From positions 1-25,562 of the IMG/VR virus record IMGVR_UViG_3300046819_000040: 25,562 bases of DNA. The stretch is one strand, 5' to 3'. This document shows, one piece after another, positions 7,107 to 25,562 of the stretch. Both the position numbers and the translations under genes were made by a program. This stretch comes from a virus. The number at the start of each line of letters is the position of its first letter. Within the stretch, counting starts at the first letter, position 1. A model generated the notes under the pieces. That model was not told the origin of the DNA. It worked only from the letters and a program-made list of their open reading frames with translations, and searched no databases.

Positions 7107-7663
7107 ATTGATCGTTTTTTCCTACCATTATTATACATTCTTAACCAATTTGAGAAGTTACCTAAAGACATTTCTTTTCTATCGAATATTCTACAAATAA
7201 CTTTAGGTTTTGGTTTGCTTAATTTTTTCTTGTGTTCTTCTGTTTTAGGTTTTCTGAGTTTATTTTTTATTTCTTCCGACTTTTCTTTACCGTGCAAATC
7301 TTCAAATGAACGGCCGACTAACGATAACCTTTTTTTATTACTTGTTTCCTTTGACTGTTTTTTTCCGTATAAAGGACTGTCTTTTCCTCTATTTTTATAA
7401 TTTGGATTTTTATTTCCTGTCTTACCAAAATTGGGATTATTTTTGCCTTTATTAGCCAGTGATTGGGCCATTTTTGTGGCCTCAGAACATGTTATTTGTC
7501 CACTTAAAGATTTCCAAGCACAATAATCCTGCCATCTGCCGTGTTCTTCCCACAACAATTTGTGCACTTCTGCGTGTTCTTTAACAGACAAACGTACTAA
7601 ATTTGATGGTTCATTTGTTCCACCAATATGTTTTGGTACTATATGGTGTACGTGATAAGTCAT
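7103..7663 (-). CDS. HNH homing endonuclease with NUMOD3-like repeats
   Basis: This 186-residue protein has an HNH nuclease core at its very N-terminus: HVHHIVPKHIGGTNEPSNLV (4-23) supplies the first His pair and the Asn, and LSVKEHAEVHKLL (25-37) the last His. Residues 70-100 hold NUMOD3-like DNA-binding motifs (GKNNPNFGK, GNKNPNYK, GKDSPLYGK). The lysine-rich C-terminal part (KNKLRKPKTEEHKKKLSKPK) is probably a DNA-binding tail. It is a free-standing homing endonuclease, a selfish gene that cuts alleles lacking it and spreads by repair. It lies between the two terminase genes and overlaps both by 4 nt (ATGA). Its base use is more AT-rich and Lys-rich than its neighbours, consistent with transfer. 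There is no sign of an intron or intein. Confidence 0.85.
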   Translation of the reverse strand: MTYHVHHIVPKHIGGTNEPSNLVRLSVKEHAEVHKLLWEEHGRWQDYCAWKSLSGQITCSEATKMAQSLANKGKNNPNFGKTGNKNPNYKNRGKDSPLYGKKQSKETSNKKRLSLVGRSFEDLHGKEKSEEIKNKLRKPKTEEHKKKLSKPKPKVICRIFDRKEMSLGNFSNWLRMYNNGRKKRSI

Positions 7664-9079: not shown

Positions 9080-9960
9080 TAGATTGTTCCGAATGGGTTA
9101 ATGTCAGTATTGTCTCTTACCGATGCAGCTAATGTTTCAATTAGTTTATTGTCATATGCTTCATTCTTAACATTAACATCTATGGCATCAAATGTATGTA
9201 ATGAGTATTGTGCATTACTTGTTGCACCAATGATAACCATATTATTAGAGAACTCACCGAACACATTTGATATAGACAGTGTATTTGCTGATGGAGTCCA
9301 ACCTTGAACTGTGCCTGTTGCAACAGCATTAGCTACAGTATTGTCTGGAGATTGGAAAACAATTTCTTTATTCTGATAGAAACCAGTTCCTTCATCCGTG
9401 ATAAGATCAATTGTGTATGCAGAATTGGTAACAATGTCATCAATCTCTGGAACACCAGTGTCGATAACTTCTTGTGAGTATCTATATTTTTCAAGTTCCA
9501 GTTCATAGAAATATGGAACTTTTCTACCAAGCATGTTGTAATCTTTATTCTGGTTTGAAAACTTTATCTCGAATAGTTCACCAACACCATTTAATACAGG
9601 AACAAAAACAAGATCACCTTCACGTGGTCTTGTTATATTTGCATTTGGTACTCTTTGTGAGAAGGATCTCTTAGAAACAATAACGTTTACATTGTTTTTA
9701 ATTTCCAAACCAAACTTAGAGAAGAAGTCTTTTTCACCCATGTATTCGGTTGAATTGGACAGATACATCTCTATTATAAATGCTGACTGAAACTTCTTGG
9801 TTGGATCTTCACCATACAATAAGTCTCTTGCTTGGTCGTTATCATTTGGAAGATAATAAGCATCAAAACCCATTATCTTAATGGATTCAACGATCAAATC
9901 TTCTATAACGCCTTGTTCGGCACTTGATCCGTAATTGTTAAAGTATGATGAAGTTGCCAT
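9079..9960 (-). CDS. 14: Neck protein gp14
   Basis: This 293-residue protein corresponds to T4 neck/head-completion protein gp14 (256 aa), which joins gp13 below the portal and lets the tail attach after DNA packaging. The N-terminal EDLIVESIKIMGFDAYYLP (20-38) is the family signature. The middle (VNVIVSKRSFSQRVPNANIT, REGDLVFVPVLNGVGELFEI) is beta-rich and typical of gp14. The start lies 1 nt after the gp13 stop and has no clear ribosome site, so it probably relies on ribosomes leaving gp13. It overlaps the gp15 start. Confidence 0.92.
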   Translation of the reverse strand: MATSSYFNNYGSSAEQGVIEDLIVESIKIMGFDAYYLPNDNDQARDLLYGEDPTKKFQSAFIIEMYLSNSTEYMGEKDFFSKFGLEIKNNVNVIVSKRSFSQRVPNANITRPREGDLVFVPVLNGVGELFEIKFSNQNKDYNMLGRKVPYFYELELEKYRYSQEVIDTGVPEIDDIVTNSAYTIDLITDEGTGFYQNKEIVFQSPDNTVANAVATGTVQGWTPSANTLSISNVFGEFSNNMVIIGATSNAQYSLHTFDAIDVNVKNEAYDNKLIETLAASVRDNTDINPFGTI

Positions 9961-9961
9961 A

Positions 9962-10735
9962 TTAGTTCATTAAGAATTCTAGTGGTGCGAAATAATTGGT
10001 AGACATTTCTTCTTCCAACTGTTTGATTTCTGCTTCAGCTTCTTCGAAGATTTTATCTCCGTTGAGTGTTACACCACCTGGTAATTGTAGACCAGAAAAC
10101 TTTTTGAGGTTGTTGCCCCAGTTTTTCTTGATGAGTGCGGTTGCATACTCTTTCAACCAACGGTCATTCCACACCTTGTCGTAAACGTCAGGGTTGATAG
10201 AGGCATAACATTCAGCAACAACGATTGTTCCGACAGGTGCCTCAGATGCACCCCAAGCCCAGTCTATATACAGACGTTGCATATGTCTCTGGAACCGTAT
10301 AGGAACTTCGCCTGTGAACATCAACTCTAAAGAACGTAGATGTTGTTGGGTTAATGTGTAATTGATGTAGGATGCAGAGGTGAAGTCGTACAATTCATTC
10401 AGACGCAGTTGGTATCTTAGGTCAAACATGTTGATTGATGTTGACGAATCTTGAATTGGAAAGATTCTAGTTATACCAACAATTTCCATTGGATTATCTT
10501 GAGCATCTGTAACGGTACTCAAGTCTAAAAACTTTTGGTCAATATCTTGTTGTTGTACTGCTTTGATGTAATATACTTTCTGTAACCCATCAAAATGGTA
10601 ATCTTGCCAGTATTGTAGTGCGTCATCGATACGATCTTCAATTTGTTCATCGTCCAGATTGAGTTCAATGACCGGCGCACCTAATCTACGTAGGCAATAA
10701 TTTTTAAAATCTGTTCTGTTTGTTATGGCCGACAT
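9962..10735 (-). CDS. 13: Neck protein gp13
   Basis: This 257-residue protein matches the shorter aquatic-phage form of T4 gp13 (309 aa), a head-completion protein of the portal-neck joint. FKNYCLRRLGAPVIELNLDD (10-29) followed by QIEDRIDDALQYWQDYHFDG is the strongly conserved N-terminus. The C-terminal half has WLKEYATALIKKNWGNNLKK followed by the LQLPGGVTLNGDKI motif, then an acidic helix. The ATG has an AGGAG site with good spacing. A perfect late promoter box lies 21 nt upstream, inside the end of the APS-kinase-like gene. This suggests that the gp13-gp14-gp15-gp16-HNH-gp17 block can be transcribed separately from the accessory cassette. Confidence 0.93.
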   Translation of the reverse strand: MSAITNRTDFKNYCLRRLGAPVIELNLDDEQIEDRIDDALQYWQDYHFDGLQKVYYIKAVQQQDIDQKFLDLSTVTDAQDNPMEIVGITRIFPIQDSSTSINMFDLRYQLRLNELYDFTSASYINYTLTQQHLRSLELMFTGEVPIRFQRHMQRLYIDWAWGASEAPVGTIVVAECYASINPDVYDKVWNDRWLKEYATALIKKNWGNNLKKFSGLQLPGGVTLNGDKIFEEAEAEIKQLEEEMSTNYFAPLEFLMN

Positions 10736-10744
10736 GGTAATCTC

Positions 10745-11167
10745 CTATGATTGGATATTTATACCATGAATAATTATATCTGCCCAACGCACCGCATCCT
10801 GTTCCGTTACTCTAAAATTGTATTTTTCTGGTGGAACAAACATTTTGTTAGTATCTTCAAATCTGCCTTGAGAAATGGTATCAACCCAGACAGTAATATC
10901 TGCATCAAATATATCCCTCATCTCTTGTAATGGTGCAACAAAATCACAGATTTGTATTTGACAATTTGTACTGTCGCAAAGTTCCCTCATTCGTTTACTT
11001 TGGTTTATTCTACCTTGTAAACTAAAGTCCCAATCATCAAATTGTTTTCTCACATCATCGGCATTAAACCACACAGTACCACAACCAATGTCACACAGTT
11101 GTTTTTGTAGTTCTTTAGCCAGGGTAGTTTTACCTGACCCTGGCAATCCCATAATTAGAATTTTCAT
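10745..11167 (-). CDS. cysC: Adenylylsulfate (APS) kinase-like P-loop kinase
   Basis: This 140-residue protein looks like a compact APS kinase, which phosphorylates adenylylsulfate to PAPS, the universal sulfate donor. Seen: P-loop GLPGSGKTT (7-15); FNADDVR (34-40), equivalent to the family LDGDNVR; DWDFSLQGRINQSKRMRE (45-62), equivalent to the DLGFSxxDRxENIRR helix; CDFVAPLQEMR (74-84), equivalent to the FISPxxxxR segment; and a short lid GRFEDTNKMFVPP (101-113). It is shorter than cellular CysC (about 170-200 aa) and lacks the usual RDxKGLY lid. Its start overlaps the stop of the glycosyltransferase fusion by 1 nt (TAATG). With the nearby sulfotransferase, PAPS supply is a coherent role. 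Another small-molecule P-loop kinase is possible. Confidence 0.75.
   Translation of the reverse strand: MKILIMGLPGSGKTTLAKELQKQLCDIGCGTVWFNADDVRKQFDDWDFSLQGRINQSKRMRELCDSTNCQIQICDFVAPLQEMRDIFDADITVWVDTISQGRFEDTNKMFVPPEKYNFRVTEQDAVRWADIIIHGINIQS
10756..10763 (-). promoter_or_regulatory. T4-type late promoter box TATAAATA before gp13
   Basis: The minus strand reads TATAAATA exactly, 21 nt upstream of the gp13 start codon, with the AGGAG site between. It lies inside the 3' end of the APS-kinase-like coding sequence. The spacing is nearly the same as for the perfect box at 1335-1342. It would start the neck and packaging block. Confidence 0.6.
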
Positions 11168-13983
11168 TAATCTAAAGACTTTTTAAATGTACTCAAATAT
11201 TTGAAGAATAGTTCTGTTTCTTCTTCTGGATCCAAAACATAGAACTCAATGACTTGACCATCATTTGGATTTTGGAAAGCAACCTTTTCTGGTAACTTAC
11301 CTTTACAAGCGATGCCGTTAACTGCACAATATGAATAGAAGTGTTGTACTACACCTATAGATAGGCGAATCGTCCAGTCGTCTCCTGATGGTTTGAGAAC
11401 TTCGTGCCAATACTTCAATCCAAGCTCTAATAGTCCAAGATTTGGATTAGGATGACCAGTAATAAACTGACTCCAGTAATCGACAAGTATATAATGTTTG
11501 GCAAATATCTTATCTGGATAAACACGAACATTCTTGTAGATCAGGTCAGCATTTCTACCAAGAGATTTGGTTTTCAACAAACTTTGATTTGCTAAACCAT
11601 AGTGTAGAACCCATGCATAATCTTGCCAGAACATCTTGTCGCCAAGGAAGTCATTATCATTCTTACTTGGATATTCATGGACTACGCCAGTGAACCGAAT
11701 ACCAGCAGACTTCTTGAACAAACGGTCATGCATCACATCAACATTAATACCCATCTTATGTGATTGTACAGACATGCATTGTTTCTGTTTGAACAGTAGA
11801 CCATCATAGTAATCACTTAACAAGAATTTGAATACTGTTTCACCGTTTTCCAGTTGTTCATCAGCATCAATCCAGAAGATAAAATCACCAGATGCTTGAT
11901 CAACAGAATAGTTTCTTGCACGAGCAAAGTTGCCAAGACCATCTTCTTCTTCCCAAACAAGGTCATAAACTTTGTTGGTAAACTTAGATGCGATACGTTT
12001 GGTGTCATCGGTTGAACCAGTATCAACAATAACGATTTCATCAGCAAAGTCTGTTACTGACTTCAAACAACGAGATAGATTATCTTCTTCGTTCTTGACA
12101 ATCATGCAACAGGAGATAGTCTTGTATGGACGAGACTTCAACCACTTGTCTTGGTAATCAGGTTCATTAAATTCAATAACATCATCTTTAGATGCATTGA
12201 ACCAGAATAACCAGTTATCACACGGCTCACCACGGCGACCCTTAACTTTAACGTTGGCCGTTGCAACACTTAGATTGACGTTGGCAAAGATTTTCTTTAG
12301 ATCATTCAACTCAAAGTGATGCACATGGTGAATCTCTTTGTTATCCTTCTTCATAAATTCCCAAGGACCACGTGGAACTGTGAAGTAGAATAGGGTGTTC
12401 TCATTAGCAAGACTCATCAACATGTTGAGAAATTGTACTGTTGGTTCAATGTGTTCAAGAAGTTCGCCGATGATGACAATATCTGGTTTGAAACCATGCT
12501 TTGTAACATTGATTACATTATCACAGACATAGTTAATCTGTGGATACTTGTTCTTATAGTTTTTCTCTAAATGTTTCAAAACTGGTTCTGAACCATCATA
12601 CATTGTCATTGATGCGATGTTTGGTGAGAATCGTTTCATCAAAGGTAATGATAAAATGCCATCATTGCTACCAAGGTCGAGAATGTTTAGTTTTTTGGTA
12701 GGATCATCGTTAAGTATGTTTTCAACCAATTTAATTAAAGTTTCACTACGACCATTTAGATAAGTATCTTCGTTGCAATTACATTCTTTGAAATCACTAT
12801 ATGACATGTTATCGTGTTCTGCCTTATCAAGCATATCACGATACTTCTGGTCGCCAGTTAGTTTCCATGCTGCAACAATGTCGGAATGGTAAACAAGATT
12901 GTCAATGATCTTGTCTTTGTACTTTTTAAAACGATCTTGAAACATATTGTCAATGTAAGAATTCCAAGTCTTAGCAACATTTTCCCATGAGTATGGTTCA
13001 ATTAGTTCTTTACCCTTGGTAACTTCTGATTCATATACTTCGCCTTGATACTTGTCAAGGATTGCCAAGAACTTCTGCACATATTCATCTGAACCATATT
13101 CAGCATCAACCTTCGTGTCAGTCTTGACCGTTTCTGACATGGCGAACTTATCTGAAGTAACGATCAGGCACTTGTTGTACTGTGCTTCCATTGCATTGAT
13201 GCAAGAAATTTCTGGGAAATCTGTTGGGTAAACCATGTAAGCACATGATGCCAACAATTTATAGTATTGTTGTTTTGGTAAATGACCAACTTTACGAACA
13301 TTATTTGAATATTCCAAAATACCATCAATCTCGGCATATAGTTCTTCAATTTCTTTAGGTCGACCAAGTGTATGCTCATAACCACAAATGTGAAGAACTG
13401 CATCTGGATTCTTCTCTAGAATCTCTGGCCAAATCTTCTCAAGCAATAACTTCAGACCACGTTCTGGACGTGATGAATAGATGTAGTTGTTTTTCTTCTG
13501 TTCCCAAGGAAGTGGGTTAGTTACGATTGTTTGATCATAACCATTGGAAGTTTTCCAGATCCAATCTTTTGGTTCTAGTTTATAATTCTCATTGAACAGA
13601 TCCCTATGAAAATCACTCAAACAGAATACTCCATCCGCAACACCCAGAGCATCCTTAAAGTTATTTGTATCAATGTCGTGACACCAAAGAATGTTCATCT
13701 TTGTGTCTAGTGGCAGAGCAAGGAAGTCCGTGAAACGACTGACAATCAGAGTATCAAACTGTGATTTCTCGTCACCTAGGTATGCTTGAATCGGTCGATA
13801 CTCAACACTATCGTAGATGCCTGGACGATCACAGTTACAGTAAACGGTAACTTCGTTGTCTAGTTTAGCAAGTTCTCTTGCCATATAAATGAGAGCAGAT
13901 TCTGACCCACCTAGTGCTTTCTCATATACGGTGTTACCATTAAAATCTAAACCAGCCGTCACAAATCCAATAGTCTTTTTCAT
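11167..13983 (-). CDS. Trifunctional GT4 glycosyltransferase - methyltransferase - GT2 glycosyltransferase
   Basis: This 938-residue protein joins three enzymes. Residues 1-355 are a GT4-type GT-B glycosyltransferase: GGSESALIYMARELAKL (25-41), SSRPERGLKLLLEKIWPEI (170-188) and a Glu-X7-Glu pair E258/E266 (FPEISCINAME). Residues about 405-600 are a class I SAM methyltransferase: motif I LDLGSNDG (435-442) and GELLEHIEP (506-514). Residues about 620-938 are a GT2-type GT-A transferase: CCMIVKNEEDNLSRCLKS (625-642), VDTGSTDD (653-660) and the DXD-like WIDADE (704-709). No membrane segment is seen. It overlaps the upstream TPR-GT9 gene (ATGA) and the downstream kinase gene (TAATG). It probably builds and methylates a glycan in the cytoplasm; substrates are unknown. 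Confidence 0.88.
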   Translation of the reverse strand: MKKTIGFVTAGLDFNGNTVYEKALGGSESALIYMARELAKLDNEVTVYCNCDRPGIYDSVEYRPIQAYLGDEKSQFDTLIVSRFTDFLALPLDTKMNILWCHDIDTNNFKDALGVADGVFCLSDFHRDLFNENYKLEPKDWIWKTSNGYDQTIVTNPLPWEQKKNNYIYSSRPERGLKLLLEKIWPEILEKNPDAVLHICGYEHTLGRPKEIEELYAEIDGILEYSNNVRKVGHLPKQQYYKLLASCAYMVYPTDFPEISCINAMEAQYNKCLIVTSDKFAMSETVKTDTKVDAEYGSDEYVQKFLAILDKYQGEVYESEVTKGKELIEPYSWENVAKTWNSYIDNMFQDRFKKYKDKIIDNLVYHSDIVAAWKLTGDQKYRDMLDKAEHDNMSYSDFKECNCNEDTYLNGRSETLIKLVENILNDDPTKKLNILDLGSNDGILSLPLMKRFSPNIASMTMYDGSEPVLKHLEKNYKNKYPQINYVCDNVINVTKHGFKPDIVIIGELLEHIEPTVQFLNMLMSLANENTLFYFTVPRGPWEFMKKDNKEIHHVHHFELNDLKKIFANVNLSVATANVKVKGRRGEPCDNWLFWFNASKDDVIEFNEPDYQDKWLKSRPYKTISCCMIVKNEEDNLSRCLKSVTDFADEIVIVDTGSTDDTKRIASKFTNKVYDLVWEEEDGLGNFARARNYSVDQASGDFIFWIDADEQLENGETVFKFLLSDYYDGLLFKQKQCMSVQSHKMGINVDVMHDRLFKKSAGIRFTGVVHEYPSKNDNDFLGDKMFWQDYAWVLHYGLANQSLLKTKSLGRNADLIYKNVRVYPDKIFAKHYILVDYWSQFITGHPNPNLGLLELGLKYWHEVLKPSGDDWTIRLSIGVVQHFYSYCAVNGIACKGKLPEKVAFQNPNDGQVIEFYVLDPEEETELFFKYLSTFKKSLD

Positions 13984-15347
13984 TCAATGTCCTTCAGAAC
14001 AAGTTTCAATTCATCGTATGCTTCTTGCCAAGTCTCTGGCGTCACCTGACGAATCAATCGTAAATTATCACCATAAAAACTTGAGTTATGTTTACCTTCT
14101 GCCCAAGTGTAGTATTCCATAATTGGTATCATAATGATTGTTCTTTTACCCATTGCACAAGCAGCATGTGCCACTGAAGTACAAGAAGTAATCACTAAGT
14201 CTAGATTATGTATAACGCCTAATAAATCTTCAAATGACTCTAACTTATTACTTAGGTCAACTATATTTTGATTGTCTGAAAGTTGTTCCATACCAACATC
14301 ACGTTGAATAGAATATAATGACCAATCATTGCCTTCTGGCATTGCTCCAATTATCTTTGATAGATTAACTGTACGATGCAATTCGTGGTCATATCTTGGA
14401 TTGCCAGACCAACGAAGTCCTACTTTGAACTTACCATCAAGTTTGTGTTTCTCTATATATTCTGGTTTTGCTTGAAGGTAAGGACCATCCCACAAATCTT
14501 CAAAGTCAAGATTGAGTGTGTGTGGCAAATCCATCATTGGAGTCCACATGTCATAATCAGACTTCTTATAATCTTTCTGAGTAATTTTTTTATCAAACGG
14601 CAAATGGTCATAAACTGAAGAAATGCCGTGCACTGTCAACAAAGACACCTTTATACCCATGGCCACAACTTTTTTTACAAAACGAATGTTGATTATTTCA
14701 TCACCAATACCACCTTCAGCAACAAACAACACATGTTTACCTGGTTGTGGTTTTCCATCCCATCTTGGTAGTCCGTCGGTTACCTTAGAATATGAACCGA
14801 ATACATTTAGGTTACGGCCAATGGCAAGATGATCCATACCCGCTTTGAAATTGCCTTCAGCAATTAGATGAACACCCTTATTGAAAAGAATAGAGTCTGA
14901 TGTTCTAGAATCAAACTTCCAAATGTTTTCTTCCAATTTTTTAACGATCTCATATGATTCTTGTTTACGGTTGCAAGCAAACAATGCAGCTGAATAATCC
15001 AACATCATTTCATCTTCAATATCGGAATTATTTGCCATATATTCAAAACACTCCAAAGCTTTTGTTGGTTTGTTAGCACTCAAATATACTTTACCTAGAT
15101 TAGCAGACATTGCCACTTTTTGCTGGGTGTCCTCACACAGTTCTAAGGCCTTCTCACCGTATTCTATTGCCTTAATAAACTTTTTGGCTTTATTGTAACC
15201 ATAGAAATAAAGGTCGTAACCAAGTAGATTTAATGGGACAAGTTTCTTATTCTCAAACAGTTCCAGAAAATCTACCAGTTCATCAAGAAGATCACTACGT
15301 GCAAATACATCAATAGTGACCTTTACTGCATCATATTCGGTCATCAT
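13980..15347 (-). CDS. TPR protein with GT9-like (heptosyltransferase-fold) glycosyltransferase domain
   Basis: In this 455-residue protein, residues about 35-190 are TPR-like helix pairs (AIEYGEKALELCEDTQQKVA, LGKVYLSANKPTKALECFEY). Residues about 200-455 resemble the GT-B fold of family GT9 and related TPR-linked transferases: VLFVAEGGIGDEII (206-219), VGLRWSGNPRYDHELHRT (309-326) and DLVITSCTSVAHAACAMGKR (383-402), which forms the sugar-nucleotide pocket. TPR-GT fusions of this type are common in aquatic bacteria and phages for surface glycan or protein glycosylation. It starts 1 nt after the sulfotransferase stop; the second Met is an alternative start one codon later. It overlaps the trifunctional enzyme by 4 nt. 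Donor and acceptor cannot be read from the sequence. Confidence 0.82.
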   Translation of the reverse strand: MMTEYDAVKVTIDVFARSDLLDELVDFLELFENKKLVPLNLLGYDLYFYGYNKAKKFIKAIEYGEKALELCEDTQQKVAMSANLGKVYLSANKPTKALECFEYMANNSDIEDEMMLDYSAALFACNRKQESYEIVKKLEENIWKFDSRTSDSILFNKGVHLIAEGNFKAGMDHLAIGRNLNVFGSYSKVTDGLPRWDGKPQPGKHVLFVAEGGIGDEIINIRFVKKVVAMGIKVSLLTVHGISSVYDHLPFDKKITQKDYKKSDYDMWTPMMDLPHTLNLDFEDLWDGPYLQAKPEYIEKHKLDGKFKVGLRWSGNPRYDHELHRTVNLSKIIGAMPEGNDWSLYSIQRDVGMEQLSDNQNIVDLSNKLESFEDLLGVIHNLDLVITSCTSVAHAACAMGKRTIIMIPIMEYYTWAEGKHNSSFYGDNLRLIRQVTPETWQEAYDELKLVLKDIE

Positions 15348-15348
15348 A

Positions 15349-16128
15349 TTACTTCATGTGTTTCCAAAAGTCCATCTGTTCCAGATGGTTGAATAGATCA
15401 GGTGGTAGAATTGTTTGGCGATTCTTGAACTCCACCTTTTGACGTACATGGTGTAGACCTTTAATGTTCATGTCGGCATCAAATTCGTCCCATGAAGCTT
15501 CAACACTTTCAAAGTCATGTTCAAACCATGGTTCACCAATAAACTCATACAGTTTTTTCATTACCAGTTTTGGATTCTTTGCCAGTTGATCGTATTGAAC
15601 GATCATAACGTTTTCTTTCTTTGGTCCAAACAATGCCTGTTTAACACCATTGTAAGCAAAACCAATAAATGCACCGTCACTAGTTAGATATTGTGCTCTA
15701 GTATATACCGAAACACCAGCACCTTCTGGGAACATCAGTGGTACATCGTATGGGTTTTTAGCAAATAGTTGTTCAAACGAATCGATGATCCATGGAATAG
15801 AACGAATACAAACGATTGTTTTTGCCTTTGGATAAAGATCGGCAAGCAATGGTGTAAAGTAAGTCCAACCACGATTGGTATCAAATACTACTGGTTTTGA
15901 ATCTTTGTAGTATGTGTCGGCAATCGAATGTATGATTTCTTTGCGTTTCTCAGCATCACACTGAAAACGATAACCACCTTGTGATTGTGATTCTTCTATG
16001 ACGGCTCTTGTGAATCTTGCCAAAGGACCAGAAACAGATGCTTGAAACTTAGGGTTCTGGTTAAGAATAGAAGAAAGTAGTGTTGTGCCTGAACGTGGTA
16101 GTCCAGAAATAAAGTGAATCTTTTCCAT
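15349..16128 (-). CDS. PAPS-dependent sulfotransferase
   Basis: This 259-residue protein starts with IHFISGLPRSGTTLLSS. The GLPRSGTT loop (9-16) is the 5'-phosphosulfate-binding P-loop of PAPS sulfotransferases, and VCIRSIPWIIDSFEQL (106-121) is the 3'-phosphate-binding segment with Arg109 and Ser117. Length and layout fit the broad bacterial/phage sulfotransferase family. It moves sulfate from PAPS to a hydroxyl or amine on a glycan, lipid or protein. There is no signal peptide or membrane anchor, so it acts in the cytoplasm. It has its own AAAGG ribosome site and a possible late box 34 nt upstream. The same gene run holds an APS kinase-like protein that could make its donor. The acceptor is unknown; a glycan made by the neighbouring transferases is the natural guess. 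Confidence 0.88.
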   Translation of the reverse strand: MEKIHFISGLPRSGTTLLSSILNQNPKFQASVSGPLARFTRAVIEESQSQGGYRFQCDAEKRKEIIHSIADTYYKDSKPVVFDTNRGWTYFTPLLADLYPKAKTIVCIRSIPWIIDSFEQLFAKNPYDVPLMFPEGAGVSVYTRAQYLTSDGAFIGFAYNGVKQALFGPKKENVMIVQYDQLAKNPKLVMKKLYEFIGEPWFEHDFESVEASWDEFDADMNIKGLHHVRQKVEFKNRQTILPPDLFNHLEQMDFWKHMK

Positions 16129-16161: not shown

Positions 16162-16169
16162 TATTTATT
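16162..16169 (-). promoter_or_regulatory. Possible late promoter box AATAAATA before the sulfotransferase
   Basis: The minus strand reads AATAAATA, one base off the late consensus, 34 nt upstream of the sulfotransferase start and overlapping the stop codon of the upstream gene. It lies at one of the few real gaps (36 nt) in this cluster. It may give the sulfation-glycosylation genes their own late start. Confidence 0.35.
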
Positions 16170-16791
16170 GTTGTTCCTGGACGACTTTTGGTTTGAGAAA
16201 GAAAAACTGTAATAGTCTGCCAGTTTCTTTTGTGTCACCATAAACATCACTATAAGAATGGAACATACCTGGTCTAAACAAAATAAGTTTGTTGAAACCA
16301 AATTCAATTCTGGTAGTTTCTTGCCATTTGTTTTCCCAATCCTGGTTTTCCGATTGTATGAAGTTTTCAAAATCTTGATATGAATTGATGTTGTATTTTT
16401 GAAATTCTGCTTGGTTATTAGGAACTTCATCCCAACCAGTTTTATTGTTTTTATAGAATTTTAAAAAATGTGGTTGCTCAGATTTACTCAAGCAAACAAT
16501 ACCAACCCACTGTGTCATTAAGTCAGGAAAGTTGGTGCATACTGATTGTAATGGTAAATCTTGTTGCGTGTTAATTACAAACGTACCAGAATTTTGTACA
16601 AACTCATATGAGTTTTCTGGTACGTTTGTGTAATACTCCATCTGGCGAAGCATATCTTCATTAGCAAAGTTCATAGGACAAATTTGTCCTTGAATAAAGT
16701 TCTCATTTTTTGAATACTCTAATGATGAAAATAATGTATTCATCTGGTGTGGATCACTATAAAATCCATCACACATAATAATCTGTTGCAT
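16165..16791 (-). CDS. 2-oxoglutarate oxygenase-like protein (DUF6445-like), possibly without the first two iron ligands
   Basis: This 208-residue protein resembles DUF6445-type 2OG-Fe(II) oxygenase-fold proteins. The distal part fits well: KLILFRPGMFHSYSDVYGD (168-186) supplies the late His (H178), and GRLLQFFFL (191-199) the 2OG-binding Arg (R192). WVGIVCLS (95-102) and the FYKNNKTGWDEVP segment (112-124) match the core strands. The expected HxD pair before the Trp should fall near residues 85-87, where the sequence reads CTN. So two iron ligands may be replaced, and the protein may be inactive or have another role. This rests on alignment by eye. It starts 3 nt after the preceding stop. 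Similar phage genes occur next to tail-fibre genes. The gene contains a striking nested inverted repeat. Confidence 0.6.
   Translation of the reverse strand: MQQIIMCDGFYSDPHQMNTLFSSLEYSKNENFIQGQICPMNFANEDMLRQMEYYTNVPENSYEFVQNSGTFVINTQQDLPLQSVCTNFPDLMTQWVGIVCLSKSEQPHFLKFYKNNKTGWDEVPNNQAEFQKYNINSYQDFENFIQSENQDWENKWQETTRIEFGFNKLILFRPGMFHSYSDVYGDTKETGRLLQFFFLKPKVVQEQQ
16577..16629. repeat. Nested inverted repeat: 15-bp perfect arms around a 16-bp palindrome
   Basis: The left arm ACAAACGTACCAGAA (16577-16591) is the exact reverse complement of the right arm TTCTGGTACGTTTGT (16615-16629). The 23-base loop holds a further perfect palindrome, AAACTCATATGAGTTT (16600-16615, sharing one base with the right arm). 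The whole lies in the coding region of the oxygenase-like gene, where the arms encode TNVPE and NSGTFV. Perfect 15-bp arms this close are very unlikely by chance. It could extrude as a cruciform or fold as a strong mRNA hairpin. Confidence 0.85.
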
Positions 16792-16794
16792 GTA

Positions 16795-17526
16795 TTACTC
16801 CAATATAATTTGTTCCAATTCTTCGATTGTTGTTTTGCTATCAATTTCAGATACTTTATCCGATTCCCAATCGAAACACGATTGTACATAATCAACAACT
16901 TCATCCACAACGGTTTGTAATTCGGCTTTGTTAAGTGTTACGAAACCTTGAGGAAATTTCCACTGTGCTGAATAGGTGTCGGTTGCAAAAACAAGTGCTT
17001 GTGTGTAGGCTGTTCTTGAACCTCTATCAGTATATATTGTTAAATTATAAGGACCGACCTGGCGATCAATTGAAGCATTTTCTTTTGTCCAACGATTGTT
17101 GGCCACAATTTGTTTTAGATTGTTTTTTGCTGTATTGATTGACAAATCCTCAGCATCATAATACATAATATAATTATTATATTGTGTATTTGTTTGTTCA
17201 ATAATTTCCTCTATTGGTTCACCAAGTTCATTTATATTAGTGACAGTGGTTTCATATGTTACTGTGTATGAAGGTTCACCTGAACCACCATACTTAAATT
17301 TTGGTCCAACCAAAGTTTCAAATAACGGATTAATTGTTGGAGGAGTTTCATCGAGTGTAGGTAATAGTTTTACCGTATCCGATAAAATTATAGGTTCAAC
17401 AATAGGATCGTTTGGCAAAGAAGTTTCAATACCACAATCTTGTTGTATAAAGTATTCGAAGTATCTTGGATTCCAATCTCTTGGTCCTGTTACAATTCTT
17501 TCATTTTTCAATAATGTGTATAACAT
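16795..17526 (-). CDS. DUF4376-like tail-fibre-associated/assembly protein
   Basis: In this 243-residue protein, the C-terminal part (about residues 140-235) resembles DUF4376, a domain found in phage tail-fibre assembly and fibre-associated proteins. Visible elements are the RQVGPYNLTIYTDRGSRTAY segment, the WKFPQGFVTLNKAELQTV segment and the ending YVQSCFDWESDKVSEI. The N-terminal half is proline- and threonine-rich and unrecognised. It has an AAGGAA site and lies 9 nt after the last RCC1 gene, the usual place for a small fibre-assembly gene directly downstream of a fibre gene. That placement supports the idea that the RCC1 genes encode fibres. It could be a chaperone or a minor component; the sequence does not decide. 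Confidence 0.65.
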   Translation of the reverse strand: MLYTLLKNERIVTGPRDWNPRYFEYFIQQDCGIETSLPNDPIVEPIILSDTVKLLPTLDETPPTINPLFETLVGPKFKYGGSGEPSYTVTYETTVTNINELGEPIEEIIEQTNTQYNNYIMYYDAEDLSINTAKNNLKQIVANNRWTKENASIDRQVGPYNLTIYTDRGSRTAYTQALVFATDTYSAQWKFPQGFVTLNKAELQTVVDEVVDYVQSCFDWESDKVSEIDSKTTIEELEQIILE

Positions 17527-17535
17527 TGATTTTCC

Positions 17536-18675
17536 TTAGTAAACAATTTTAGATGCCATAGCGTGTGATCCGTTACGAACTTGATTCCAATTTGTGTCTG
17601 TGCCGACTTGAACAGGACTATATCTATTGGTCGTATCCGATAAACCCAATTGACCATTTTCATTATATCCACAAGCCCACATAGTTCCATCATTCTTTAT
17701 AAAAGATACTGAGAAAAGTGATGAATGTACTTTATTCCAATTAGTCAATGATCCTACTTGTGTTGGTGATGAACGATTTGTCATGTCTGATAGACCTAAT
17801 TGTCCTCTACTATTCCAACCCCAAGACCAAAGAGTGCCATCCGTTTTTATTGCATATCCAGCAAGGGTGCCAAAAGACACTTTGCACCAATCACTTAATG
17901 TTCCAATCTGTATAGGTGATGAAACTGTTGTGTCACTATTATTTCCTAAAGAACCAAATGGATTATATCCCCAAGACCAAAGTGTTCCATTAGTCTTAAC
18001 GGCTAAAACTGCTGAATAACCACATGAAATTTCCGACCAATTTGTTTCTGTTCCAATTTGTACTGGACTAGAAATGTAAGTTGTGTCTGTGTTAGCACCT
18101 ACGGCACCTAGTCTATTGTCTCCCCATGCCCATAATGTACCATCTGTTTTGATAGCAACAACTGAAGGATACGTTTGGCATAAACCAGTGGAAATTTTAC
18201 TCCAATTATTTAATGAACCAACTTGAACAGGACTGTATCTAGTTGTACTATCTGATAGTCCTAATTGTCCAGATTGGTTTCTTCCCCATGACCAAAGAGA
18301 TCCATCTGTTTTGATTCCTGTACTAAATTCATATCCAGCTTCAACTTTACTCCAAACTCCGTTTGTTCCTACTTTTACAGGACTATAATAACCTGTGGTG
18401 TTGGATGTTCCTAATTGTCCATAGTTATTGTAACCACATGACCACAAAGTACCATCAGACTTTACTAATAATGAATGTATTCCACCAACAGCAAAATTTA
18501 TATAATTATTACCTGTTCCCAACTGAATTGGGCTGATATATGAGGTGGTATTTGATAATCCTAGTTGACCCACTCCATTGTTACCCCAAGACCATATGTT
18601 TCCACTCGTCTTGAAAAGAGACTTGGACATATATCGGTTTCTTAGGTCATTTGAACCTTGATAATTGTAGGTCAT
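17536..18675 (-). CDS. RCC1-repeat protein with seven repeats (single beta-propeller)
   Basis: In this 379-residue protein, after about 24 unique N-terminal residues (MTYNYQGSNDLRNRYMSKSL) there are exactly seven RCC1-type repeats of about 50 residues. Each is centred on a blade strand such as SDGTLWSCG, TDGSLWSWG or NDGTMWACG, followed by YGQLGLSDTTNRYSPVQVG-like loops and a Trp-containing strand. Seven is the number of blades in a canonical RCC1 propeller, so this is probably one closed propeller. The unique N-terminus may attach it to another virion part. It overlaps the giant RCC1 gene by 4 nt (ATGA) and is followed by the DUF4376-like gene. A fibre tip or adhesin role is inferred from context; RCC1 propellers generally bind other proteins. 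Confidence 0.85.
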   Translation of the reverse strand: MTYNYQGSNDLRNRYMSKSLFKTSGNIWSWGNNGVGQLGLSNTTSYISPIQLGTGNNYINFAVGGIHSLLVKSDGTLWSCGYNNYGQLGTSNTTGYYSPVKVGTNGVWSKVEAGYEFSTGIKTDGSLWSWGRNQSGQLGLSDSTTRYSPVQVGSLNNWSKISTGLCQTYPSVVAIKTDGTLWAWGDNRLGAVGANTDTTYISSPVQIGTETNWSEISCGYSAVLAVKTNGTLWSWGYNPFGSLGNNSDTTVSSPIQIGTLSDWCKVSFGTLAGYAIKTDGTLWSWGWNSRGQLGLSDMTNRSSPTQVGSLTNWNKVHSSLFSVSFIKNDGTMWACGYNENGQLGLSDTTNRYSPVQVGTDTNWNQVRNGSHAMASKIVY

Positions 18676-21600
18676 GCAAGTTCTGCCAGAATTGTGTTGG
18701 ATTGTGCAAACAAACTAATGTAGTTATTTATAGTACCAACTTGAATTGGGCTTGATCTGTGTGTATAATCACCTTGACCAAGTTGACCGTATGAGTTGTT
18801 TCCCCATGCCCATAATGTGCCATCTGTTTTTAGAGCTGTTGAGAAGGTATCACCACAAGCAATTTGCAACCAATTGGATAATGTTCCGACTTGTGTTGGT
18901 GATGAACGGTGTGTTATGTCAGACACACCCAACTGACCAAATGAGTTATTACCTTGTGCCCATAGAGTATTGTTACTATCAATTCCTAACCAATGTGCAG
19001 TACCAGCTGCAACTTTACTCCAATTAGATTTTGTTCCAAGTTGAATTGGTGAATAAATTGTAGCATACAATCTTCCCAACTGGCCAAGATCATTTCTGCC
19101 CCAAGAGTACAATTTACCTTCACTATTCAAAGCAAATGTTGAAGATGATGTTGTGCGTACTGACGACCAATTACTTAGGTTTCCTACTTTTGTTGGAATC
19201 CAATAATGTGTTTGATTTGATTGTGCAAGTTGACCGTATGAGTTGTTTCCCCATGCCCATAATGTGCCATCAGATTGTGTTGCAAGTGTGTTGTTATATC
19301 CACACACAACTTGTGACCAGTTGGTGTAAAGTCCGTAACCCAGTATTACTGGTGCATAGTATGTTGATGCTAATGTGTTGTTCTGGCCTAATTTACCTTG
19401 ACCATTGTACCCCCATACCCAAGCATTTCCTGAAGAATCTAATGCTATTGGACTAATAACGGATGTTGCGTCTATATCCACCCAATCCGTTTTTGTTCCA
19501 ATTTGTACTGGACTGGATCTGTTTGTTAGATCAGATACACCAATTTGGCCATAGTTATTGTAACCCCAAGTCCATAGTGTGCCGTCAGTTTTAATAGCAA
19601 AAATATTTGAAGATGATTGCCCTGAAATTTTTGCCCAATTACTTTCTGTTCCTATTTGTGTTGGAAATGATGCAAAAGTTACATTGCCTATTCCCAGAGC
19701 TCCATATGTGTTTATACCCCAAGCCCATAATGTACCATCAGTTTTCAGACCTGTTGCACCATAACCAGCAACTATTTGAGACCAGTTACTATCTGTACCA
19801 ATTTGAACCGGAGTTGATCTATTTGTCAGATCACCTGTTAGTAATTTACCAAAAGCATTGTTACCCCATCCCCATAAAGTTCCATTACTTTTTATTGCAA
19901 ACGCAGCATCACGAGCTGAAAATTGGACCCAGTCGGTGTCTGTTCCGATTTGCGTTGGCATATAACCATTTGTCCAAGGACTAGACGTATTCAATCCACT
20001 AAGGCCTTGACTTCCTGTACCCCAAGTCCATAAAGTACCATCCAGTTTTAATGCAAAACACGCATTTCCTGCATTGTAAGCTATTGACCAATCAGAATAT
20101 GTTCCGATCTGTATTGGTGTTGATGTGGCACCTTGAGTTAAACCAAATTGATATGCTCCAGCTGGACCCCAACCCCAAAGAGTGCCATCAGTTTTTGTTG
20201 CTATATTTGTAGCTGCTTCGCCAGAAACGCTTTTCCAATTATTCAGAACACCCACTTGAATAGGTGATGATCTATTTATTAAATCACCGACACCAAAACT
20301 TCCTAATGAATTGTCTCCACCAGTAACAAATAATCTATTGGACAAATCTATTAAAAATGATGTATATCCTGTAGAGGTTACTTTTGAATATGTTAGTGCT
20401 TGAGCACCAACTAAAACTGGACTATAATAGTGTGTTTGGTTATTTTGTCCTAATTGTCCATATGAGTTGCTACCCCATGTATATAGATAACCACTATTAA
20501 TTGCTGCACTGTGTTGTGATCCACCTGATGATTTTAACCAACCATTTGATGTTCCTATCTGAGTTGGATTGTAGATGTGTGTTCGATGACTTAAACCAAG
20601 TTGTCCATATGAATTGTTGCCCCAAGTCCAAAGAGTACCATCATTCTTGATAGCAGTAGCATGAAATTGACCAGAATTGATTGATGATAAGTCAGTAACG
20701 TAACCACCACCAACAAGTGTTGGTGTAGTTAGGTGCATTTGGTTTCCTTGACCTAATTGTCCATATGAGTTGTTACCCCATGCATACAGATAACCATTTG
20801 AATTGATAGCTACTGATCCATATGCAGACCACCCCGATGATGGATATACCCAATTACTTAATGTACCAATTTGTACTGGACTGTATCTATTTGTCGTATC
20901 TGATAGCCCCAATACACCATATGAATTTAAACCCCAACCCCAAAGAGTGCCATCAGTTTTTGTTGCTAAAACCATTTCATTACCAGAGGCGATATTGTTC
21001 CAGTCTGTTAAACTTCCTACCTGAGTTGGTGTTGATATGTGTGATCCTGTGTTTAATCCTAATTGGCCATAGTTATTGATGCCCCAAGACCATAGTGTTC
21101 CATCATTTTTAATGGCGAAAGAAGAAAGATTGGATGCACATATTTTATTCCAATTGGTGTCTGCACCAACTTGTACTGGACTCAATCTATTTGTCGTATC
21201 TGATAGTCCAAGTGAACCATAGTTATTGTAACCCCATGCCCATAGGCTGCCATCATTTTTAATGGCTAAGGTATGTGAACCACTAGAAGTTTTATTCCAA
21301 TTGGTGTCTGCACCAACTTGTACTGGGCTGGATCTATTTGTTAGATCAGATAACCCTAATTGTCCTTGGGCATTATTTCCCCATGTCCATAATGTGCCAT
21401 CAGTTTTAATAGCAGAAGTGAACCAAGATCCTTCAGAGACTTGACTCCAGTTACTAAGTACACCAATTTGTACAGGTCTATATCTGGTTGCTGTATCACT
21501 TGTTCCTAAATTACCATAGGCATTAGAACCCCATGCCCACAATGTACCATTTGACTGTATTCCTAAAACGGATTGATTATATACAGAAACTTGATTCCAA

Positions 21601-24600
21601 ATACTCGATACACCAACTTGTGTTGGACTAGACCTATCTATTGCATCAGATAAACCTAATTGGCCATTAGCATTAGAACCCCATGCCCACAATGTACCAT
21701 TTGACTGTATCGCTACATTGAAGCTTATTCCAGCCTCAACTTGTTTCCATTGGTTTGTTTCATTACCCACTTGAACAGGAATACTTTGTGTGTATGCATT
21801 ATTTTTGGCCAGTTGGCCAAATGAGTTGTTACCCCAACCCCATAAAGTACCACCACTATTAACAGCAAAAGAATGAAATTGGCCAAGCGACACTTTTGAC
21901 CAATTATTTTTTGGTGCATTCCATCCTAAAGTTACTGGAGAATTGTAAACGGTGTTGCCGTTATTTTGACTTAATTGTCCATTACCATTCAAACCAAAAA
22001 CCATTACCGTATCATCTGTCAAAATTGCCGCGGTGTGTCTTAGGCCGGCCGAAACTTTTTTCCAATTGTTTAATCCGCCCACTTGTACAAAACTATAGAC
22101 ATTGGTTGAATTTGATAGACCTAATTGTCCTTGTGTATTGTAACCGCAACCCCATAATGTACCATTAGATTGTATTGCTACTGTGTGTTGATAACCACAT
22201 GAAACTTGTTTCCACAAATCAGTACCAACTTGAGCAGGACTTGATCTGTTGGTCAGATTTGATGTTCCTAATTGACCTCTGTTATTGTAACCCCATGTCC
22301 ATAAAGTTCCGTTTGTTTTAATGGCCGCATTGTGGTTTTGTCCGGATGAAATTTGACTCCAATCACTCAGTGCACCAATTTGCACAGGACTATATCTACT
22401 TGTTGTATCAGATAAACCTAGTTGTCCGACTAAATTGTAACCCCAACCCCACAAAGAACCATTAGATTTGATAGCTAGAGTGTGTTGATAACCACAAGAA
22501 ATTTGACTCCAATCGGTTAATGTGCCAACTTGAACTGGACTGGAAAGTATAACATTGTTAGATTGGCCTAATTGTCCGTACTGATTTCTTCCAAAAGACC
22601 ATAGTGATCCATTGGTTTTTATAACCATTGTATGATAGTAACCTGCAGCAACTTGTGACCAATCACTTAGATTACCAACCTGAACCATTGTCAATCTATT
22701 TGTTGTGTCAGATAAGCCTAGTTGTCCTGAGTTATTGTAACCACATGTCCAAAGTGTTCCGTTGGATTGTAAACCAACTGTATGAAAATAACCCCCAGTC
22801 AATTGTGACCAGTTGTTAGCGGTTCCAATCTGAACCATAGTTGATCTATTTGTTAAATCTGTTGTACCTAATTGACCTTTGCTGTTGTAACCACATGTCC
22901 AAAGTGTTCCGTTGGATTGTATGCCTGCGGTATGGAAACCAGTTGCAAGAATATCTTTCCAATATTCAATACTATTACCAATTAATAATGGACTAGGATT
23001 GACTCCAATTATATTATTTTGTCCTAATTGTGCATATGAGTTGTTGCCCCATACAAACAATTCACCATCAGAATCTATAGCTGCACTATGAAAAACGTTT
23101 GCGTCAATTTCAATCCAGTTATTTGATGTGCCTACTCTTTGTGGATTAATACTAGAAATTTGATTTGATGTGCCTAATTGACCATAAGAATTTAAACCAT
23201 GTGACCACAGAGTTCCATTACTATTTAATACTAAACTGTGTGAAGTGCCAGGTGCAGAACTTTTTACTGATAACGGACTGAATATTGCAGGTTGTACAAA
23301 AGGTGTTGTTACATCAGTTAATTGACCGAAAGAAGTTACACCCCAACCATACAATGTTCCGTCTGTTTTGGTGTAAACACCCCAACCACCACCAATAGAA
23401 GCTTGAGTTACACTTGTTGCAATAGGAGTTGGTGTTGAAATAAATTGACCATCACCTATTGCATTGTTAGAATATACTGAATACCCGTATGAGACAGCAC
23501 ATTGGTAATTTGGCACCCAATTTGTATTATCGCCAAATATGTATAGTGTTCCTGATGTGTCCAGTACAGAAGACCAGGATACGTTTTGTGAACCCACTGG
23601 GAATGTTGACCAATTATTTGCAGAACCTACTTGGTTTGCATAAGATCGATATGATGTTGAATCATAACCTAATTGACCAAAATTTGGGCTTCCACCCCAA
23701 GAGTATAGTTCACCATTTGAATTTATTGCTGTGCTGTGATAGTCACCGGAACTAATTGATGCCCAATTTGATAAATTGCCAATTTGGATAGGACTAACAA
23801 TATTGGCCACGGTGTTTATACCAACTGCTCCAACTGATCCTTGTCCCCAAGACCATATTGTGCCATTGGTTTTAAGTGCTATTGTATGGTTGTATCCGCA
23901 AGAAACTTCATTCCAATCGTTTGACATGCCGACTTGGATCGGACTGGATCTATTCGTGTTATCATTTAAACCTAATTGTCCGTAGTTGTTAGAACCCCAG
24001 ATCCATAGTGTTCCGTCGGATTGAATCGCTGCTGTATGAAAATAACCACATGAGAATTTTACCCAATTATTAGAAGTTCCCACTTGAGATGGTGTTGATC
24101 TGTTTGTCACATCACCTAAACCAAGTCTACCGTTACCGCCGTTACCCCAAGCCCATAGAGTACCATCAGAATTTAATGCAGCACCAGCATAACCTTTATG
24201 ATATGTGTCAACTTTTGTCCACGCACCTGTTTTTATCTGCACAGGAGTGGACATTGCGGCCGTGGTGTTTAAACCTAATCTAATACCATCATTGTTTAAA
24301 CCCCAACCCCACAATGAACCATCGTCACGTATACCAAATGAATATGTGTATCCACAAGCAACTTTCGACCAATTACTAACGGTGCCAACTTGTACTGGTG
24401 TTCCTGATGGAGATCCTCCTCCGTAATTACCCCAGTCATTTCTACCCCATGCCCAAAGAGTGCCATTTGATTGGATACCCTCCATAAAATAACTGCCGTT
24501 GCCAATAGTTTTCCATAAACTAGACCCGACTTGACAAGGACTGCTTTGATTAACTGTTGTGTTTAATCCTAAGTTATTCTGTAAAGCGTTGGTGTAACTA

Positions 24601-24803
24601 TAACCACAAGTCCATAAGGTTCCATCGTTTTTTATGAATGCTGTAGTTCTTGGACCGCCAAAAGATTTATTCCAATCAGTCGAATTGCCTATTTTAGCAG
24701 GAATTAATGTATTATATCTTCTACTTCTACCAATTTCCCATAATGTACCGTCGTCTTTGATGACATAGTTAGAGTTGCTTTTAATTCCGTAATATTTTGT
24801 CAT
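18672..24803 (-). CDS. Giant RCC1-repeat protein with 40 repeats, probable tail fibre/adhesin
   Basis: This 2043-residue protein consists of RCC1-type repeats from end to end. I count 40 blade strands of the form DGTLWxWG or a variant (GTLWTCG, GELYSWG, GYLYAWG, TVMVFG). The N-terminus (MTKYYGIKSNSNYVIKDDGT) enters the first repeat at once, and the C-terminus ends just after the last (SLFAQSNTILAELA). There is no signal peptide, membrane segment, collagen-like region or peptidase. Forty repeats would fill almost six seven-bladed propellers in a row, like beads. Residues about 417-514 are the least regular part. The gene starts 4 nt after the preceding RCC1 gene and overlaps the next. In T4-like order this is the zone of baseplate, short fibre and whisker genes, hence the fibre guess. 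Asn, Ser and Thr are abundant, giving possible glycan sites. Confidence 0.85.
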   Translation of the reverse strand: MTKYYGIKSNSNYVIKDDGTLWEIGRSRRYNTLIPAKIGNSTDWNKSFGGPRTTAFIKNDGTLWTCGYSYTNALQNNLGLNTTVNQSSPCQVGSSLWKTIGNGSYFMEGIQSNGTLWAWGRNDWGNYGGGSPSGTPVQVGTVSNWSKVACGYTYSFGIRDDGSLWGWGLNNDGIRLGLNTTAAMSTPVQIKTGAWTKVDTYHKGYAGAALNSDGTLWAWGNGGNGRLGLGDVTNRSTPSQVGTSNNWVKFSCGYFHTAAIQSDGTLWIWGSNNYGQLGLNDNTNRSSPIQVGMSNDWNEVSCGYNHTIALKTNGTIWSWGQGSVGAVGINTVANIVSPIQIGNLSNWASISSGDYHSTAINSNGELYSWGGSPNFGQLGYDSTSYRSYANQVGSANNWSTFPVGSQNVSWSSVLDTSGTLYIFGDNTNWVPNYQCAVSYGYSVYSNNAIGDGQFISTPTPIATSVTQASIGGGWGVYTKTDGTLYGWGVTSFGQLTDVTTPFVQPAIFSPLSVKSSAPGTSHSLVLNSNGTLWSHGLNSYGQLGTSNQISSINPQRVGTSNNWIEIDANVFHSAAIDSDGELFVWGNNSYAQLGQNNIIGVNPSPLLIGNSIEYWKDILATGFHTAGIQSNGTLWTCGYNSKGQLGTTDLTNRSTMVQIGTANNWSQLTGGYFHTVGLQSNGTLWTCGYNNSGQLGLSDTTNRLTMVQVGNLSDWSQVAAGYYHTMVIKTNGSLWSFGRNQYGQLGQSNNVILSSPVQVGTLTDWSQISCGYQHTLAIKSNGSLWGWGYNLVGQLGLSDTTSRYSPVQIGALSDWSQISSGQNHNAAIKTNGTLWTWGYNNRGQLGTSNLTNRSSPAQVGTDLWKQVSCGYQHTVAIQSNGTLWGCGYNTQGQLGLSNSTNVYSFVQVGGLNNWKKVSAGLRHTAAILTDDTVMVFGLNGNGQLSQNNGNTVYNSPVTLGWNAPKNNWSKVSLGQFHSFAVNSGGTLWGWGNNSFGQLAKNNAYTQSIPVQVGNETNQWKQVEAGISFNVAIQSNGTLWAWGSNANGQLGLSDAIDRSSPTQVGVSSIWNQVSVYNQSVLGIQSNGTLWAWGSNAYGNLGTSDTATRYRPVQIGVLSNWSQVSEGSWFTSAIKTDGTLWTWGNNAQGQLGLSDLTNRSSPVQVGADTNWNKTSSGSHTLAIKNDGSLWAWGYNNYGSLGLSDTTNRLSPVQVGADTNWNKICASNLSSFAIKNDGTLWSWGINNYGQLGLNTGSHISTPTQVGSLTDWNNIASGNEMVLATKTDGTLWGWGLNSYGVLGLSDTTNRYSPVQIGTLSNWVYPSSGWSAYGSVAINSNGYLYAWGNNSYGQLGQGNQMHLTTPTLVGGGYVTDLSSINSGQFHATAIKNDGTLWTWGNNSYGQLGLSHRTHIYNPTQIGTSNGWLKSSGGSQHSAAINSGYLYTWGSNSYGQLGQNNQTHYYSPVLVGAQALTYSKVTSTGYTSFLIDLSNRLFVTGGDNSLGSFGVGDLINRSSPIQVGVLNNWKSVSGEAATNIATKTDGTLWGWGPAGAYQFGLTQGATSTPIQIGTYSDWSIAYNAGNACFALKLDGTLWTWGTGSQGLSGLNTSSPWTNGYMPTQIGTDTDWVQFSARDAAFAIKSNGTLWGWGNNAFGKLLTGDLTNRSTPVQIGTDSNWSQIVAGYGATGLKTDGTLWAWGINTYGALGIGNVTFASFPTQIGTESNWAKISGQSSSNIFAIKTDGTLWTWGYNNYGQIGVSDLTNRSSPVQIGTKTDWVDIDATSVISPIALDSSGNAWVWGYNGQGKLGQNNTLASTYYAPVILGYGLYTNWSQVVCGYNNTLATQSDGTLWAWGNNSYGQLAQSNQTHYWIPTKVGNLSNWSSVRTTSSSTFALNSEGKLYSWGRNDLGQLGRLYATIYSPIQLGTKSNWSKVAAGTAHWLGIDSNNTLWAQGNNSFGQLGVSDITHRSSPTQVGTLSNWLQIACGDTFSTALKTDGTLWAWGNNSYGQLGQGDYTHRSSPIQVGTINNYISLFAQSNTILAELA
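18725..18732 (-). promoter_or_regulatory. TATAAATA box before the seven-repeat RCC1 gene
   Basis: The minus strand reads the exact late consensus TATAAATA inside the 3' end of the giant RCC1 gene, 50 nt upstream of the next start codon. The distance is longer than at the other perfect boxes (21-24 nt), and it falls in coding sequence (INNY), so chance is a real alternative. Confidence 0.35.
18779..19271. repeat. 46-bp exact direct repeat in the RCC1 array (copies 447 bp apart)
   Basis: The copies are at 18779-18824 and 19226-19271 and are identical over 46 bases. The offset of 447 bp is 149 codons, about three RCC1 units, so they lie in the same frame and the same blade position. The identity extends over third codon positions, which protein-level selection alone does not explain. 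Confidence 0.85.
21143..21326. repeat. 37-bp exact direct repeat, one RCC1 unit apart
   Basis: The copies are at 21143-21179 and 21290-21326, offset 147 bp (49 codons). They encode the same VGADTNWNK segment in adjacent repeats. Confidence 0.85.
21520..21710. repeat. 41-bp exact direct repeat, one RCC1 unit apart
   Basis: The copies are at 21520-21560 and 21670-21710, offset 150 bp (50 codons). They encode the IQSNGTLWAWGSNA blade strand in adjacent repeats. Confidence 0.85.
22735..22921. repeat. 37-bp exact direct repeat, one RCC1 unit apart
   Basis: The copies are at 22735-22771 and 22885-22921, offset 150 bp. They encode the QSNGTLWTCGYN blade strand in adjacent repeats. Confidence 0.85.
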
Positions 24804-24807
24804 CTTT

Positions 24808-25562
24808 TTATAATCCGTAATCTAATTTTGATGCCTGTAAACCTGATGATTTTAAACCTAAACAACCAACAGCATTATAACCAAAACAAAAAACTTTTCC
24901 ACTACTATCTATTGCTATTGTGTGATATGATCCACATACAACGTTTTCCCATTGGTTTGATGATCCAATTTGAACTGGACTATATCTGTCTGTAGTGTCG
25001 CCTAATCCTAGTTGACCATAGACATTATATCCCCATGCCCATAATGTGCCATTAGATTGTATGGCTATACTGTGATTATAACCACAGGAGATTTTTTTCC
25101 ACAAATCTGTTCCGATTTGAACTCGACTTGATCTATTTGTTGTGTTGCTTGATCCCAATTGACCATAAGCATTATAACCCCACGACCAAATAGTTCCGTC
25201 GTCTTTTAAAGCCAGAACGTGAGAGTTTCCTGTAGAGACTTTATTCCAATAAGTTGTTGCAATTTGTGTTGGTGAAGTGGATGTTGCTGTTGTGTTATTA
25301 CCTAATTGACCATAAGCATTAGCACCCCATGACCATAATGTACCATCGGACTTTATGGCTATCGAATAATATGGTCCACAAGCTATATCATTCCATGTGT
25401 AACTTGTTATTTGTACCATACTGGAAAGGTTTACGGTCGTTGAATTTCCCAACTCATATGAATTGTTTCTCCCCCAACCCCATAGAGTACCATTGCTGTT
25501 TAGTGCAAAATTAAAAAAAGCACCAGATGAACATTTTGTCCAAGATTTGTCTGGTGCTATTT
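24808..25562 (-). CDS. RCC1-repeat protein, 5' part beyond the window
   Basis: The frame is open to the right edge, so the true start is outside the window. A TTG near 25452 would be a possible start only in isolation, because RCC1 sequence continues upstream of it (FALNSNGTLWGWGRNNSYEL). Five blade strands are visible: NSNGTLWGWG, KSDGTLWSWG, KDDGTIWSWG, QSNGTLWAWG and DSSGKVFCFG. The C-terminus ends abruptly in the last repeat (GLKSSGLQASKLDYGL), without the usual SPVQVG and Trp-strand half, which may be supplied from the N-terminus when the propeller closes. It ends 4 nt before the giant RCC1 gene. It probably forms part of the same fibre or adhesin complex. Its full length is unknown. Confidence 0.85.
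   Translation of the reverse strand, partial: IAPDKSWTKCSSGAFFNFALNSNGTLWGWGRNNSYELGNSTTVNLSSMVQITSYTWNDIACGPYYSIAIKSDGTLWSWGANAYGQLGNNTTATSTSPTQIATTYWNKVSTGNSHVLALKDDGTIWSWGYNAYGQLGSSNTTNRSSRVQIGTDLWKKISCGYNHSIAIQSNGTLWAWGYNVYGQLGLGDTTDRYSPVQIGSSNQWENVVCGSYHTIAIDSSGKVFCFGYNAVGCLGLKSSGLQASKLDYGL

Follow-up and report, generated by a model that had tools for sequence, protein, structure and literature searches.

The three tandem RCC1 genes A, B and C of the viral record IMGVR_UViG_3300046819_000040 probably (we would put it at about 70%) encode adhesins for host recognition that belong to the tail-fibre module, the virion location being assigned to this virus by analogy. Our case is built on the repeats themselves, the order of the genes, a rule by which the repeats (blades) come in sevens, and the presence of RCC1 repeats on tail-fibre N-termini in unrelated phages. 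The stretch of DNA analysed, hereafter the window, is the whole IMG/VR record (25,562 bases, GC 37.6%). The source virus is T4-like, with a gp17 terminase about 55% identical to those of marine cyanophages; nothing nearly identical to the window at the DNA level was found among deposited phages.

Along the minus strand, RCC1-A (24808..25560), RCC1-B (18672..24803) and RCC1-C (17536..18675) come first. They are followed by a DUF4376 protein resembling tail-fibre assembly partners (16795..17526; PF14301 at 1.5e-12, phrog_10508 tail fiber at 1.5e-16), a conserved 208-aa cassette protein that is probably 2OG-Fe(II) oxygenase-like (16165..16791; phrog_1644 at 8e-9, 25% identity to the cassette member of locus L016), a sulfotransferase (15349..16128; PF13469 at 1.2e-16) and a TPR protein (13980..15347; weak TPR matches), the latter two recurring in RCC1 cassettes. 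The middle part consists of a 938-aa glycosyltransferase/methyltransferase/glycosyltransferase fusion (11167..13983; PF00534, PF13489, PF00535), an APS kinase-like P-loop kinase (10745..11167; PF01583 at 3.8e-11), the gp13-like (9962..10735; phrog_211, head-tail adaptor) and gp14-like (9079..9960; phrog_460, head closure) neck proteins, a gp15-like tail sheath stabilizer (8096..9079; phrog_227) and a gp16-like gene. An HNH/NUMOD3 homing-type endonuclease gene (7103-7663) lies between the latter and the gp17 terminase large subunit (5418..7106; recognized by tblastn to T4-like terminases), and the last genes fit gp18, gp19 and gp20; the gp16-like, gp18, gp19 and gp20 assignments come from gene order, not from profile matches. 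The sulfotransferase, the kinase-like protein and the glycosyltransferase fusion are grouped within 10745-16128. Sulfotransferase and kinase are repeatedly paired next to RCC1 cassettes and may serve the sulfation of a glycan on the fibres or on the cell.

The earlier note had described three tandem RCC1 genes with 52 repeats, and this count stands: by blade motif there are 5 + 40 + 7, in abutting genes that are all on the minus strand and together occupy essentially all of 17536-25562. Tandem repeats of about 50 aa exceed the curated cut-offs of PF00415 and PF25390 in these proteins, and all 47 PF00415 matches in the record, 43 of them above the cut-off, fall within this interval. The 2043-aa protein B comprises a half blade and 40 blades, spaced 48-54 aa apart in 37 of 39 cases (median 50); its 76 pattern hits, against about one in shuffled proteins, place the repeat count far above chance. 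Of A, whose 5' end lies beyond the contig, the C-terminal 250 aa are visible, with five blades of which the last is the first half of one. Its complete orthologs (482-483 aa) consist of a leader and 7.5 blades; by alignment with its ortholog, the window copy is short of about 235 N-terminal residues. C (379 aa) has exactly seven blades, one propeller's worth, behind a short N-terminal leader (residues 1-24), and its best sequence match in the PDB is UVR8 (3.7e-43). The leader of C resembles the RCC1 leader motif weakly: one search gave no match, and with the b-type model, one of four models tried, 14 of 2000 shuffles scored as high. The motif is conserved in many relatives, where it is confined to RCC1 proteins, and the C ortholog of locus L210 supports an N-terminal leader better than the window protein itself.

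Blade counts were exact multiples of seven in 199 of the 236 distinct complete ORFs with at least four blades found over all fetched loci: seven blades in 181, 14 in 11, 21 in six and 49 in one. An earlier set gave 68 of 92 (p about 1e-37 against an expectation of 1/7, a guide only, the ORFs being related). In L097b three seven-blade blocks are separated by long linkers, and in L099b a leader-like stretch lies exactly between two such blocks; together with the rule, these layouts favour closed seven-bladed units. The 49-blade (7 x 7) ORF is a single 2485-aa frame in an 18-kb viral contig (L186, 3092-10546). Still larger RCC1 frames (3840 and 4227 aa), in which 55-69 blades can be counted, occur in L095 (2-11521) and L096 (6647-26161), that of L095 with long non-RCC1 inserts of lectin-like appearance. 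The cyanophage gene S-SRM01 gp335 (L009, 31488-32519) has six blades, not seven, as in a six-bladed ring or after the recent loss of one blade.

Protein B departs from this rule. Its 40 blades and the 19 of its ortholog are both 5 modulo 7, neither being a multiple of seven, while their difference, 21, is three times seven; the two proteins match in position over their first ten blades, among them the irregular blades 8 to 10. A search for lag-7 similarity within B, intended to fix the propeller register, gave no signal; only neighbouring blades are alike (lags 1 and 2, z 2.9 and 2.6). AlphaFold models of the two halves of B, the second built from an artificial A+B fusion, are patchy (mean pLDDT 62 and 72) and contain confident closed propellers only singly or locally, as across blades B11-B17 (Z 38 to UVR8). 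B may be a string of about six propellers, as suggested, but neither the blade number nor the lag-7 search bears this out, and the models show closed propellers with confidence only locally.

Genes A and B meet within a blade (24753..24900, minus strand): A ends with its first half, GKVFCFGYNAVGCLGLKSSGLQASKLDYGL, and has its stop codon at 24808-24810, and B begins with its second half, MTKYYGIKSNSNYVIKDD. The orthologs in L210, L307 and L150 likewise have a half-blade end of A and a half-blade start of B; since L210 and L150 hardly differ from each other here, about three cases count as independent. We considered a frameshift error, since reading TAAA as one step joins both frames and yields a repeat of exactly 50 aa, and rejected it because the same two-gene arrangement is present in L210, L150 and L307. 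The simplest functional reading of the sequences is that A and B would jointly complete one blade; alternatively, the split is inherited without having a function. At the junction the model of the artificial fusion has pLDDT values below 50 and lends no support to a formed hybrid blade. Only tentatively, as a possibility we hold to be rather doubtful, do we suggest a distinct class of phage adhesins in which RCC1 propeller chains are lengthened in seven-blade steps (from one to seven propellers) and A and B are zipped together through one shared blade, half of it from each gene.

The window ends inside A, before any fibre gene, and the placement of the RCC1 genes was read from relatives. A search with gp14 provided 80 T4-like loci, and RCC1 was then sought in 35 records, 33 of these 80 and two cyanophages. 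Only four carried it: both cyanophages, selected on account of their RCC1 genes, and the record pair L016/L022. RCC1 near gp13 is thus a minority trait. With B, C and the APS kinase as queries, many further RCC1 loci were gathered. Among them a cassette recurs: S74 tail fibre, RCC1a, DUF4376, RCC1b, RCC1c and sulfotransferase/TPR/kinase genes, with gp13 next where the contigs extend that far; profile checks covered both the S74 domain and the assignment as a fibre. The closest relatives, as judged from gene order and sequence identity, are G046-G048 and G051 (372 kb), which show an S74-chaperoned tail fibre, an RCC1 gene of 18 blades (1056-1060 aa), A (482-483 aa), B (978 aa), C (381-383 aa) and DUF4376, followed by sulfotransferase, TPR and glycosyltransferase genes and, in G046-G048, also by the kinase and gp13. 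The L210/G051 proteins are 46, 45 and 51% identical to window A, B and C, respectively. Laminin-G-like and YadA-head matches, with weak carbohydrate-binding ones, were obtained for genes upstream of the S74 fibre in these nearest relatives and mark this region as a predicted adhesin cluster. The proposed fibre position was thus confirmed from relatives with the same cassette, and the DUF4376-like gene expected after the RCC1 genes is indeed in place in the window. DUF4376 was found in 9 of 14 RCC1-bearing records and in one of 14 RCC1-free T4-like records (Fisher p 0.004).

That the RCC1 genes take the place of gp10-gp12 and wac of T4, as the earlier note supposed, now appears highly improbable. 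They do have the baseplate/fibre region on one side and gp13 on the other, as gp10-12 and wac have in T4. Against this, relatives keep ORFs with gp9/10 or Collar domains elsewhere: the 372-kb relative, whose A, B and C are orthologous, has an ORF with a gp9/10-N domain (3131 aa) and another with a Collar domain (700 aa), a 259-kb record has both domains, and a 75-kb record has the gp9/10 domain. Moreover, the RCC1 genes of relatives directly follow a normal S74 tail fibre, and they also occur at other places, such as between gp15 and gp16 in L218. The L218 gene has 14 blades, and L238/L239 carry an RCC1 gene between the kinase and gp13. The fibritin profile PF07921 matched nowhere, controls included, and says nothing about wac; the case against a replacement is drawn from the relatives.

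RCC1 genes have already been annotated in other phages, among them the freshwater cyanophage S-SRM01 (NC_070963; gp335, gp337 and gp344), although the paper describing it does not mention RCC1. This T4-like phage resembles the window in that its RCC1 genes directly follow the S74 tail fibre and have a DUF4376 gene among them, with TPR, oxygenase and sulfotransferase genes thereafter; it differs in having six to seven blades per gene and in lacking both a 40-blade protein and a split blade. PollyC gp38 and SeaP4_12 (Ppr_SeaP4_12) stand in the tail-fibre place of T7-like phages and combine C-terminal RCC1 repeats with an N-terminus of T7-tail type, which tail-fibre PHROGs match over residues 1-334 and Pfam T7_tail below its cut-off, and Littlefix gp88 likewise joins a tail-fibre N-terminus to RCC1. 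In these three podophages one propeller is on the same chain as the fibre, whereas the window has separate genes. RCC1 genes also adjoin fibre or baseplate genes in PBES02, LIBA6276, SP-15 and LIS04. In the Septuagintavirus W70, the RCC1 proteins W70_237-239 were found in virions by mass spectrometry (PMC11370258), and GAP32 gp1 is a virion protein by the same method. The fusions to fibre N-termini, the neighbourhood of fibre and baseplate genes and the W70 virion proteins all argue for a role as adhesins. Other observations count against it: the 40 blades of B, the patchy models, and the RCC1 rows away from fibre genes. Unlike the window, W70, GAP32 and PBECO4/121Q have rows of single-propeller-sized genes, named chromosome condensation proteins; in the jumbo coliphages and in Erwinia phages (PBECO4, Hallingskeid) the rows are apart from the annotated fibre genes, and W70 genes 237-239 are distant from the main structural cluster.

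Presence in the virion alone would also fit proteins that organise the packaged DNA within the capsid, an idea proposed for phAPEC6 from the analogy with eukaryotic RCC1 (PMC7247149) and repeated in the W70 paper (PMC11370258). PHROGs similarly files phrog_4219, phrog_7220 and phrog_16766 under DNA, RNA and nucleotide metabolism, yet phrog_4219 covers PollyC gp38 with its tail-fibre N-terminus. We consider this explanation very unlikely: it rests on the family name, the window proteins are nearly uncharged (A, B and C have a pI of 7-8.7; B, pI 6.95 and net charge -2), and neither the position in the fibre module nor the fusions in PollyC, SeaP4 and Littlefix agree with it. It is also unlikely, if somewhat less so, that the proteins are no virion parts at all and are released or displayed by the infected cell, for instance to block receptors against other phages. 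C, hardly more than one propeller, and the surface-glycan enzymes of the cassette would suit such a protein; the W70 virion data and the same fusions speak against it.

Returning to the proteins as probable adhesins, each stretch of seven RCC1 repeats would fold into a closed seven-bladed beta-propeller, C being a single propeller with its leader taken as a docking tag and B having many more blades in a row. We infer that in the window phage the RCC1 proteins would be virion components, probably mounted on the S74 tail fibre that relatives encode just upstream, that the DUF4376 protein, as a putative assembly factor, would help in this mounting, and that they would present many weak binding faces to surface glycans. 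Beta-propellers of other families, one per chain, occur in the baseplate or host-recognition apparatus of phiKZ (gp131, Z 14.5) and of the S. aureus phage phi11, whose receptor-binding protein Gp45 contains one; in both, receptor binding is proposed or supported (PMC4901313). The cellular signalling proteins UVR8, HERC and RCC1 share with the window proteins only the RCC1 fold of seven blades (best Z values, 33-38).

That phages have RCC1 proteins, that virions contain them and that their genes neighbour fibre genes is already known or annotated. In the open-access literature we found no paper treating them as adhesins, and, as far as we searched, no description of the cassette, the seven-blade rule, the 40-blade size or the conserved split blade. 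Two papers take their lead from the name that phage RCC1 genes carry, 'regulator of chromosome condensation'; gene order and fibre fusions suggest instead that many of these genes encode adhesins. From the seven-blade rule it would seem that whole propellers are gained or lost in evolution and, if so, RCC1 genes would lend themselves, as a ready-made series, to tests of avidity and host range. The conserved split blade offers a directly testable way of joining two proteins.
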